Source: Synechococcus sp. CS-1330 (GTDB lineage Bacteria; Cyanobacteriota; Cyanobacteriia; PCC-6307; Cyanobiaceae). From it: a stretch of DNA of 64,000 nucleotides. The stretch is from positions 62,001 through 126,000 of the forward strand of contig JAHLYR010000002.1 of NCBI GenBank assembly GCA_025128025.1, read 5' to 3'. Numbering within the stretch: position 1 is the first letter of the stretch; every line of letters starts with the position of its first letter. The notes beneath the pieces were generated by a model. That model saw only the letters and a list, made by a program, of their open reading frames with translations. It searched no databases and was not told the origin of the DNA. Below, in pieces: positions 22,388 to 25,632 of the stretch. The translations under genes and the position numbers were made by a program.

Positions 22388-22912
22388 CTATCGGCACGCC
22401 AGGCTGTCTTTAGTGGCGACTCCGGTGCTCGGATTGACACCGGCAGCTCGTTTGCAGAGTGCTTTCTGCTCAGGCAGATCGAGCACTGCATCACTGAAAT
22501 CAGCTCCCTCAATGGTTGCCCCCTTGAAGTGGCTTTGCATCAACATGGCGTTTCGCAGCACAGCACCACTGAGGTCAGTGTCCTCAAAGTGACTGGCGAA
22601 GGCCACCGCGTCCTCCAGGTTGGCGTCCTTGAGGTTGGCTCCCCGTAGGTCGCTGCTGTTGAAAACAGCTCCGCGCAGATCGGTTCCGCTCAGATCGAAG
22701 CCCGTCAGGGTCGCCTTCAAAAACTCCTGCTGTTGAAGGTTGCGGCCGTGCATGTCGGGTTGGAGGTCTTGTAGCGACCGCTGGCTGCGCAGCTCAGGGG
22801 CGGTGATCGCAGCGGCCGGTGAGACCCCCAGGCACCAGGTCAGCACCAGGGCCAGTGCCGCTAGCAGCCAGCCACCTGACCAATTCGCTCGGCTTTCAGA
22901 TCTCGAGCTCAT
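22388..22912 (-). CDS. lumenal/periplasmic pentapeptide-repeat protein
   Basis: The 174-residue protein has a signal peptide (WLLAALALVLTWCLGVSPAAA) followed by pentapeptide repeats of the A(D/N)Lxx type from about residue 66 to 145 (FDLSGTDLRGAVFNSSDLRG, ANLKDANLEDA, ADFSDAVLDL). These fold into a right-handed square beta-helix. Such proteins are common in the thylakoid lumen of cyanobacteria, mostly of unknown role. Cysteines near the C terminus (ALCKRAAG, LACR) may form a disulfide cap. ATG 22912 is used; MIHRK at 22936 is an alternative. Its stop is just upstream of the B12 riboswitch on the same strand. Confidence 0.88.
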   Translation of the reverse strand: MSSRSESRANWSGGWLLAALALVLTWCLGVSPAAAITAPELRSQRSLQDLQPDMHGRNLQQQEFLKATLTGFDLSGTDLRGAVFNSSDLRGANLKDANLEDAVAFASHFEDTDLSGAVLRNAMLMQSHFKGATIEGADFSDAVLDLPEQKALCKRAAGVNPSTGVATKDSLACR

Positions 22913-22942
22913 GGGCGCGCACTTACGGTGAATCATCAAGTT

Positions 22943-23608
22943 ATGGCAACCATGGTGATGGCTTTGCGGGTGGTGGTTCCCCCCCACCCCCTGATTGGCC
23001 ACTGGCTTGGCGTTCTGCGTGATCGACACACGCCTGGCTCGCTTTACGCCTCCGCTACTGCTGAGCTAGGTCGCTGGCTCACCTATGAGGCTGTGCGCGA
23101 TTGGCTGCCCCACAGGCGCATCCAGCTGGAATCACCCCTTGCTGCGGCGGAGGCAGACGTGGTGGATCCGGCGGTCCCCCTGCTGGCCCTGCCCCTGCTA
23201 ACCGCTGGGCTTGGCCTTTGGCAGGGCGGCCAAACAGTGCTTCCTTCTGCCCAGGTGCTGCACCTACAAGAAAGCCTGGGTGTGATAACTCCTCCAGCCG
23301 GGCCAATCCCACCCCGCTGCGGAGTTTTGCTGTTTTTAGCGGAACTCGGAGACGGTGAGTCCCTGCTCCAACTGCTCGATGACCTTTCAGCCCTAGGTGT
23401 GAGCGGTGATCGCTTGCGAGTGATTACATCCCTGGCCTCTGGGCCAGGACTCAAGGCTGTGGGGGAGCGGCACGGCAACCTCACCATTTACGCCGCTGGC
23501 ATCGATCCGGATTTGAACGAAGCCGGTGCGATCGTCCCTGGTATCGGCGATGTGAGGCAGAGGTTGTTTGGTGGCACGGTGCTGGATGAAATGCCCACCG
23601 ATACCTAG
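22943..23608 (+). CDS. uracil phosphoribosyltransferase-like protein with degraded PRPP loop
   Basis: The overall fold matches cyanobacterial Upp: VVVPPHPLIGHWLGVLRD at the N terminus, then TAELGRWLTYEAVRDWLPH, and the uracil-binding end IYAAGIDPDLNEAGAIVPGIGD. Two catalytic elements are altered. The PRPP loop, normally close to DPMLATGGS, reads FLAELGDGES, and the RAGLG block reads TAGLGLW, so the arginine is lost. It may be a non-enzymatic or altered-specificity relative. ATG 22943 is used; ATGs at 22952 and 22958 and GTG 22928 are possible. It diverges from the pentapeptide gene with only 30 bases between start codons. Confidence 0.75.
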   Translation: MATMVMALRVVVPPHPLIGHWLGVLRDRHTPGSLYASATAELGRWLTYEAVRDWLPHRRIQLESPLAAAEADVVDPAVPLLALPLLTAGLGLWQGGQTVLPSAQVLHLQESLGVITPPAGPIPPRCGVLLFLAELGDGESLLQLLDDLSALGVSGDRLRVITSLASGPGLKAVGERHGNLTIYAAGIDPDLNEAGAIVPGIGDVRQRLFGGTVLDEMPTDT

Positions 23609-23633: not shown

Positions 23634-23906
23634 ATGCGTAATCACAACGGCGGCACCCCAGCTAGTGGCAGTTCCAGCCTCAGTGTGTTGGCTGGTGCTG
23701 TTATTGGTGCTGCTGGCCTTGCTTGGTGGCTGCTTGCTGAGGCCGAGCGCCGCCGGCACCAAGGCCGGCCTGCCCGCGCCGCTGGAATTGCAGCCTCGCC
23801 GGCGGTTGCCGCGACGGACCGGGACCTTCACGACCGGGTCCATGAGCTCAACCAGGCCATCGACGACGTGCGCCGTCAACTGGAGACCATGACCATCCAG
23901 GGTTAG
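23634..23906 (+). CDS. small single-pass membrane protein, unknown (90 aa)
   Basis: The protein has one hydrophobic helix ([21 protein letters not shown], about residues 16-36), then an Arg-rich segment on the presumed cytoplasmic side ([14 protein letters not shown]), and a C-terminal helix with heptad-like spacing ([22 protein letters not shown]), a possible short coiled coil. I do not recognise a family. It lies between the UPRT-like gene and ilvD, 25 bases after the former, on the same strand. Confidence 0.65.
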
Positions 23907-23961
23907 GGCTTCGGCGCCTATCGGCCCGGTGGGTAGGTTTCTTAAAGCCCAACCCATCACC

Positions 23962-25632
23962 ATGCTCCGCTCCGCCGCGATCACGCAAGGCATTCAGCGC
24001 TCCCCCAACCGCGCCATGTTGCGGGCCGTTGGCTTTGGCGATGGCGATTTCAACAAGCCGATTATTGGCGTTGCCAATGGCTACAGCACAATTACACCCT
24101 GCAACCTGGGCTTAAACGAGCTGGCTCAGCGCGCCGAGACGGCCCTTCAAGCAGCCGGTGCCATGCCCCAGATGTTTGGCACCATCACGGTGAGCGATGG
24201 CATATCAATGGGCACGGAGGGAATGAAGTATTCCCTGGTGAGCCGCGAGGTAATTGCCGATTCGATTGAAACTGCCTGCAACGCCCAAAGCATGGATGGC
24301 CTGCTGGCAATTGGTGGTTGTGACAAAAATATGCCAGGAGCAATGTTGGCCATGGCGCGCATGAATATTCCCTCAATTTTTGTTTACGGTGGCACGATTA
24401 AACCTGGCAAGCTTGGCGCCTGTGATCTCACAGTAGTAAGCGCTTTTGAGGCGGTTGGTCAATACAGCGGCGGTCGTATTGATGAGCAGGAGCTCACTGC
24501 AATTGAAAAGAATGCTTGCCCTGGTGCCGGTAGTTGCGGCGGCATGTTCACCGCTAACACCATGAGTGCCGCCTTTGAGGTGATGGGCTTAAGCCTGCCC
24601 TACAGCTCCACCATGGCTGCTGAGGATCCGGAGAAAGCAGAAAGTGCTGCCCGCAGCGCCGAGGTTTTGGTTGATGCACTGAAGGCAAACATCTTGCCTA
24701 GTGACCTACTCACCCGAGAGGCCTTCGAAAATGCCATCAGCGTGATCATGGCGGTGGGTGGCTCTACTAATTCCGTGTTGCACCTTTTGGCCGTAGCCCG
24801 CACCGCTGGAGTACCCCTAAGCATCGACGACTTTGAGACGATCCGCCAGCGGGTGCCAGTGATCTGCGATCTAAAACCCAGTGGTCGCTACGTGACCGTT
24901 GACCTTCATCAGGCCGGTGGCATACCCCAGGTGATGAAGCTGCTGCTTGATGCGGGCTTACTGCATGGCGATTGCCGCACCATCGAGGGCAAAACCCTGG
25001 CTGAGTTGTTGGCGTCTGTTCCTTCCGAGCCCCCCTCTGGACAGGATGTGATCCGTCCACTTAGCAACCCCCTATATCCAAAAGGGCACCTGGCGATTCT
25101 CAAGGGGAACTTGGCTGAAGAGGGTGCGGTAGCCAAGATCAGTGGGGTTAAAAACCCCGTTATCACCGGCCCAGCACGGGTTTTTGAAAGTGAGGAATCC
25201 TGCCTGGCCGCAATCCTTGATAAGCAGATCAACCCTGGTGATGTGGTGGTAGTGCGCAATGAGGGCCCGGTGGGTGGCCCTGGCATGAGGGAGATGCTCA
25301 GTCCCACTGCTGCAATCGTGGGGCAGGGCCTGCTCGATTCGGTGGCCCTGATCACCGATGGCCGCTTTTCAGGCGGTTCCTTCGGTCTGGTTGTGGGTCA
25401 CGTTGCACCCGAGGCTGCCGTGGGCGGCACCATCGGCCTGGTTGAGGAAGGGGACAGCATCACGGTCGATGCCATCGAATTGCTAATCCAGCTCAATGTC
25501 CCTGATGTGGAAATCGCTCGGCGGCGCTCCGCCTGGGTCAAGCCTGAGCCCCGTTATCGCACCGGGGTGCTTGGCAAATATGCCCGCCTGGTTGGCAGCA
25601 GCAGCCGGGGTGCGGTGACCGATGAGATCTGA
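23962..25632 (+). CDS. ilvD: dihydroxy-acid dehydratase
   Basis: This enzyme catalyses the third step of valine/isoleucine synthesis, removing water from 2,3-dihydroxy acids with an Fe-S cluster. The 556 residues contain the cluster cysteines in [11 protein letters not shown] and [16 protein letters not shown] and an N-terminal site near TPCNLGL; the nucleotide-like block [33 protein letters not shown] and a full C-terminal domain are also present. ATG 23962 gives [20 protein letters not shown]; the longer GTG start at 23929 adds non-conserved residues. Confidence 0.97.

Follow-up and report, generated by a model that had tools for sequence, protein, structure and literature searches.

The locus examined here raises the question of why a cyanobacterium would keep a protein that is derived from uracil phosphoribosyltransferase (UPRT, encoded by upp) and in which the catalytic motifs of that enzyme are degenerate. 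The open reading frame (22943–23608, plus strand), which encodes 221 aa, lies in a 64,000-nucleotide stretch of DNA (hereafter the window) from Cyanobium; the source genome is Cyanobium-like (97% protein identity to Cyanobium usitatum), 2.5 Mb in size and 99.9% complete. An initial annotation had described the product as a UPRT-like protein whose PRPP loop was lost and which might have become a sensor, a regulator or an enzyme acting on another substrate. Among the matches listed from open-licence PMC papers, no description of a degenerate UPRT in cyanobacteria was found.

The fold of the window protein is that of a UPRT over its whole length. Its single Pfam match is to UPRTase (PF14681; residues 12–210, 118.3 bits against a cut-off of 27), while the cut-offs of the NCBIfam upp equivalog TIGR01091 (100.2 versus 208.35 bits) and of NF001097 (108.4 versus 114 bits) were not reached; these were the only two models to appear in an NCBIfam search up to E 1, and no match to the PyrR model was obtained in that search. 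An AlphaFold model based on an alignment of 46 sequences (the window protein and 45 of the 60 fetched loci) reached a pLDDT of 89.2 and a pTM of 0.85, and the 27 best Foldseek rows for this predicted structure were all UPRTs (TM about 0.8). Similarly, the matched stretch of a Prochlorococcus orthologue (L091) was modelled with a pLDDT of 92.4 and aligned to solved UPRTs with Z scores of 21.5–26.7; a different fold was rejected for this orthologue as no other family came near, the next non-UPRT entry having a Z score of 12.3. The row of another locus, L092, aligned poorly in the first alignment (31%) and may hold a frameshift. A phage origin of the window gene was also considered and rejected, since 18 stretches in viral contigs matched the search pattern and none was confirmed as a relative.

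Compared with bacterial Upp proteins (PF14681; PDB 1i5e and 1o5o), the window protein thus shares the whole-length fold, and additionally the N-terminal module and the PGxG loop, but differs in having lost the PRPP loop, the RAG arginine, a second arginine and the GDAGDR motif, and in scoring below the NCBIfam upp cut-offs. The former PRPP loop (23336–23362, plus strand) reads LAELGDGES (residues 132–140, within FLAELGDGES at residues 131–140) where intact relatives align with DPMLATGGS, and the loop pattern [DE]PMxATG is not matched; codon 87 (23201–23203, plus strand) encodes threonine in the column of the RAGLG arginine. Both changes had been read correctly in the initial annotation, as had the uracil-binding IDPDLNEAGAIVPGIGD, which is found in the protein, and an intact loop does not occur elsewhere, the predicted model aligning end to end with solved UPRTs. 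The altered loop is not an assembly error, because other genomes at 96–99% identity read LAELGDGES (L037 and L039) or VAELGDGES (L038) at the same position.

In the UPRT of M. tuberculosis, Arg77, Arg102 and Asp198 are proposed to serve catalysis or PRPP binding, Asp198 being equated with Asp200 of B. caldolyticus (PMC3570474). Transferred by a shift of two and by alignment to 1i5e, these residues correspond to T87, residue 110 (112 in the clade alignment; no arginine) and Asp203 of the window protein, so that the window protein has lost the PRPP loop together with two of the three proposed residues but retains one aspartate. The second arginine, whose role in UPRTs is taken from the same source (PMC3570474), would lie in residues 107–114 (23261–23284, plus strand). 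This segment is absent from most Prochlorococcus-like orthologues (L091, L094, L110, L126–L150 and L186–L197), its columns being filled in fewer than 60% of rows. Asp203, within GIGD, is equivalent to the proposed catalytic Asp200 of B. caldolyticus, and therefore not every proposed catalytic residue has been lost; across the degenerate clade this position is often Asn or another residue. It forms part of the uracil-loop region (residues 187–207, IDPDLNEAGAIVPGIGDVRQR; 23501–23563, plus strand), in which the window protein reads GIGDVRQR (residues 200–207) versus GLGDAGDR in intact relatives, GDAGDR having become GDVRQR. In the degenerate clade I187, D188, P199, G200, G202 and R207 of this region are retained, and GDAGDR is mostly lost.

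Judged from these motifs, the window protein very probably has no UPRT activity. It could still be a UPRT, either a weak one or one with a rearranged PRPP site, as Asp203, the PGxG loop and Arg207 remain, and there is a precedent of wrong prediction: the metazoan homologues (human, and Drosophila krishah) were doubted on sequence grounds and predicted to be unable to bind uracil, yet the Drosophila UPRT is reported to be active (PMC4536494). In those proteins, however, two uracil-site residues are absent and the active-site regions are described as conserved (PMC4536494), whereas the window protein has lost the PRPP side, including the Asp, Pro and Thr of the loop and both PRPP arginines. Furthermore, the loop proline is reported to be catalytically important in the E. 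coli enzyme (Lundegaard and Jensen 1999, cited in PMC3570474), and we regard continued UPRT activity as very unlikely. Another comparable protein is trypanosome APRT2, an inactive type I phosphoribosyltransferase for which no detectable activity is described; it differs in keeping its PRPP motif and in having an active paralogue (PMC8836349), whereas the window genome is without a second Upp over the cut-off.

The existence of a second intact upp, raised in the initial annotation as a point to be checked, was not borne out: the only PF14681 match over the Pfam cut-off in the genome is the window gene itself, and four weak matches proved to be other phosphoribosyltransferases, namely PyrR and PyrE, which exceed their own cut-offs, and a ComF-like and an unassigned protein, which fall below. 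PyrR (NF003549) is, like Upp, of the phosphoribosyltransferase superfamily and is annotated as a regulator with UPRT activity, but it belongs to another family and is encoded separately and intact in this genome (242 bits against a cut-off of 138). Sequence assignment would thus make it a possible substitute for the UPRT activity, and uracil salvage, if needed, would fall to PyrR. Across the family, PyrR is over its cut-off in 182 of 201 genomes; in three high-quality genomes of one genus (G364, G466 and G482), no PyrR match is better than weak (best E 1e-11 to 1e-23), which sets them apart from their congeners. The uracil permease PF00860 was rejected as a correlate of the state of upp, being uninformative: it matched in 23 of the 201 genomes of the family, exceeding the cut-off in 22 of them and mostly scoring 30–45 bits, and it is absent from the window genome. 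The co-occurrence of PyrR in most family genomes would also fit a protein that, without catalysis of its own, assists or regulates another phosphoribosyltransferase, for example as a prozyme of PyrR, and inactive and regulatory phosphoribosyltransferases are known (PMC8836349); against this, one genome (G514) has the protein and no PyrR match, and pyrR is unlinked in the window genome, lying on another contig. Such a partnership therefore appears quite unlikely.

The protein is retained throughout the family, with matches in 183 of the 201 genomes and in 130 of the 131 of high quality. By script label, the 181 unique sequences comprise 78 intact, 12 partial and 91 degenerate proteins; two sequences labelled degenerate (L034 and L176) have an intact loop and were treated as intact in the tree. 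Degenerate motifs were found in all 10 genomes searched from the genus of the window, and the motifs are lost in all 35 rows that we term Prochlorococcus-like or marine, a label of our own under which L091, L094 and L110 are named Prochlorococcus and the others group with these on the tree. Conversely, the loop is kept in the examined rows from cyanobacteria outside the family and, within the family, in L070–L073, L075, L081, L082, L160, L164 and L169, which include Synechococcus WH 5701 and Vulcanococcus limneticus; the motifs are retained by several early-branching members. Other family members carry ATAG in place of ATGG, and these proteins are treated here as probably active, with T. gondii as a precedent. 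In L166–L168 the loop reads DPILARGAT or DPILARGTT and the other motifs are intact, possibly representing a further, early stage of loss. L176 (G368:C24:155268-155876) is a second, very divergent UPRT in one family genome, with an intact PRPP loop, a GDAGDL tail and a very long branch, and was possibly acquired elsewhere.

Phylogenetic analysis indicated that the catalytic motifs were lost several times within the family. A quick tree was calculated from 141 rows, leaving out the motif columns and dropping 22 second-paralogue rows and rows more than 96% identical; it contains one wholly degenerate clade of 70 rows (SH-aLRT 97) and three further losses, that is, four changes, of which one (L165) rests on a draft sequence that contains ambiguous residues, and three rather than four changes are forced when only strongly supported branches are considered. 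A more careful tree, for which the rows were thinned by hand to 67 (44 degenerate and 23 not), likewise requires four changes, or five if the DPILARG rows are counted as lost, and in it the branch leading to the main degenerate clade receives a bootstrap value of 81 and an SH-aLRT value of 88. A single origin of the degenerate rows was rejected (p-AU 0.0013), a p value weakened by the fact that the group was named after the first tree had been seen.

Intact and degenerate copies are orthologous, as indicated by their shared genomic place: the window gene occupies the ancestral upp locus. Among the loci whose rows were listed, intact and degenerate family members have in common a divergent pentapeptide-repeat gene upstream, which in all but a few cases is followed by a cobW-like gene still farther out; downstream they share a small protein and ilvD, except for the WH 5701-type clade and the intact L169, in which ilvD was not found. 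In the window, ilvD (dihydroxy-acid dehydratase; PF00920 and PF24877) lies at 23929–25632 on the plus strand, and the pentapeptide-repeat protein (PF00805, matched on 22388–22948) at 22388–22936 on the minus strand, its start being uncertain and the ATG at 22936 having been taken. The two reading frames stand head to head (22934–22954) with 6 bases between the ATGs at 22936 (minus) and 22943 (plus), and because of this short distance at least one of the true starts is probably internal to its reading frame. In the upp product, Met4 is a conserved residue.

Purifying selection acts on the degenerate gene. Its median omega (dN/dS, Nei-Gojobori) in 17 close pairs chosen by hand was 0.083, compared with 0.058 for the pentapeptide gene, 0.085 for the small protein and 0.040 for ilvD (17 pairs each) and 0.086 for the cobW-like gene (15 pairs), and at this distance it is as constrained as its neighbours. 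Over wider distances the median rose to 0.379 in 1338 degenerate pairs, versus 0.241 in 155 intact or partial pairs of the family and 0.091 in 31 pairs from outside it; for disjoint nearest pairs the corresponding values were 0.156 (35 pairs), 0.145 (8) and 0.089 (8). The close-pair and wide-distance values together indicate a gene that is functional but under looser constraint. This looser constraint, and the free variation of the catalytic motifs in freshwater rows, could be expected of a gene in decay that is kept by chance, but a match in 130 of 131 high-quality genomes, a close-pair omega near 0.08, like that of the neighbours, and retention in genomes of about 1.6–1.7 Mb make decay hardly credible. 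A selected non-catalytic role of the window protein is, in our judgement, likely.

To establish which parts of the protein are retained, sites were considered conserved if at least 90% of the 55 intact or partial rows agreed, and kept if the same residue occurred in at least 85% of the 70 degenerate rows. By this measure 27 of 34 conserved sites are kept in residues 1–64, versus 16 of 46 in the remainder of the protein (p 1e-4 in a Fisher test that treats sites as independent), thereby defining a preserved N-terminal module (residues 8–64, VVVPPHPLIGHWL...GRWLTYEAVRDWLP; 22964–23134, plus strand). In the Sulfolobus UPRT, the equivalent region makes up a large part of the dimer interface. In particular, residues 15–17, 19–23, 45–49 and 48–56 are (with an offset of +7) parts of the A/B dimer interface listed in the contact table for the Sulfolobus enzyme (PMC13408691). 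The conservation of this region might result from folding alone. Outside this module, the degenerate clade has retained the PGxG loop, Asp188 and Arg207.

The Prochlorococcus-like clade has moreover fixed a new loop, (D/E)QI, with Gln134 and Ile135 each in 34 of 35 rows, Asp or Glu at 133 in 33 of 35 and an acid at 132 in none of the 35; further new near-invariant sites are P87, W93, G127, G169 and P204. As far as can be read from the alignment, the newly fixed loop residues favour the view that the site has been put to new use in this clade. On one account the rebuilt loop binds a different metabolite, making the protein an enzyme or sensor for another substrate or ligand, and loop residues that decay should not fix were indeed fixed again there; no single new loop motif is present in the freshwater degenerate rows, the window included, and a fixed loop could equally be a protein contact, and we hold another ligand to be unlikely. 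The initial proposal, in which the protein outlived its catalytic loop because it serves some other purpose, is upheld by the repeated loss, the family-wide retention and the purifying selection, and more strongly than a single sequence would allow; a sensor, a regulator and an enzyme for another substrate are all candidates for that purpose.

A candidate for a partner is encoded by the small gene (23634–23906, plus strand) that starts 25 nt past the upp stop codon. Its predicted one-helix product is probably related to the ssl2009 thylakoid family, the location being taken from the name of the NCBIfam model (NF053524), which it matches below the cut-off (28.8 versus 58 bits, E 1.5e-6); no Pfam match over the cut-off was obtained. 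The small protein at the same place in L116 scores 109 bits against this cut-off of 58, which misses the picocyanobacterial small proteins that were tried (those of the window and L141). In a wider search 135 of 146 genomes matched NF053524, 58 of them over the cut-off, and matches as strong as that of the window (about 26–35 bits) occur in many genomes outside the class; since weak matches are widespread in the phylum, the main support for the relation comes from our own profile and from position. The C-terminal motif of the small protein, roughly LN.AI.DVR.QL, is found both within the family and outside it.

The profile was built up from ORFs that had been preselected as small, hydrophobic and downstream of upp; applied to all 6319 ORFs of the loci and the window it gave 147 matches. 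Judged by their start coordinates, 8 of these lay outside the expected place, and 7 of the 8 are long ORFs that extend into it. With this profile the small gene was found within 700 nt downstream of upp in 95 of 96 degenerate family loci, the 96th (L054) having it behind a run of N, in 14 of 27 intact or partial family loci and in 35 of 40 non-family loci of this orthologue, and in none of 25 second-paralogue and 4 distant loci; nor was it found beside L176. Some of the loci in these counts are one place fetched twice. With the curated models alone, the small gene adjoins upp in 33 of 41 class-level genomes among the matches listed, the 624-nt type being used for genomes with two Upp copies. 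The pairing is not obligatory, because in the WH 5701-type clade the small gene adjoins ilvD, away from upp, in 8 of 8 genomes searched.

We consider it rather probable that the window protein is a pseudoenzyme of UPRT descent, maintained because of a non-catalytic role that is older than the loss of catalysis. The second role would already have been present in the active ancestor, as repeated retention after repeated loss is otherwise hard to explain: the ancestor would have had two jobs, and picocyanobacteria would repeatedly have dropped the chemistry. The window protein would then no longer make UMP. The ssl2009-like partner gene favours a membrane-associated form of this role, in which a dimeric adaptor, perhaps binding a base or nucleotide through the kept PGxG loop, would work with the co-encoded small protein at the membrane, probably the thylakoid. 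This membrane partnership is put forward tentatively, our estimate having been lowered slightly because sub-cut-off matches to the ssl2009 model are unspecific.

By analogy with other systems, caution is due on the pseudoenzyme reading, on the grounds of the Drosophila precedent described above and of a genetic tool: inactivation of upp serves as the basis of counter-selection with 5-FU in Synechococcus elongatus, Synechocystis 6803 and Synechococcus 7002 (PMC4166995), and thus the second role seems dispensable in these three model cyanobacteria in the laboratory. In plants, the plastid UPRT (UPP) is described in reviews as having a pronounced function in establishing photosynthesis (PMC9312225, citing Ohler 2019), and UPRT mutants as dwarfish and chlorotic (PMC4137279); unlike the window protein, the Arabidopsis enzyme is described as active (PMC4536494). 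A doubtful extension of our reading would give cyanobacterial Upp, and by descent perhaps plastid UPP, an ancient non-catalytic thylakoid role with ssl2009-type proteins, the only role that picocyanobacteria would have kept after several losses of catalysis; if true, this could also explain why photosynthesis is affected in plants with mutated UPP.

Where a UPRT label is assigned by homology, models of pyrimidine recycling would credit very abundant phototrophs with a uracil salvage that they probably lack. Catalysis was lost repeatedly while the protein was retained, and this constitutes a natural experiment that separates the chemistry of the enzyme from its second role. Should the second role be exercised at the thylakoid, a small cyanobacterium would make it possible to test why plant plastids need UPRT to establish photosynthesis.
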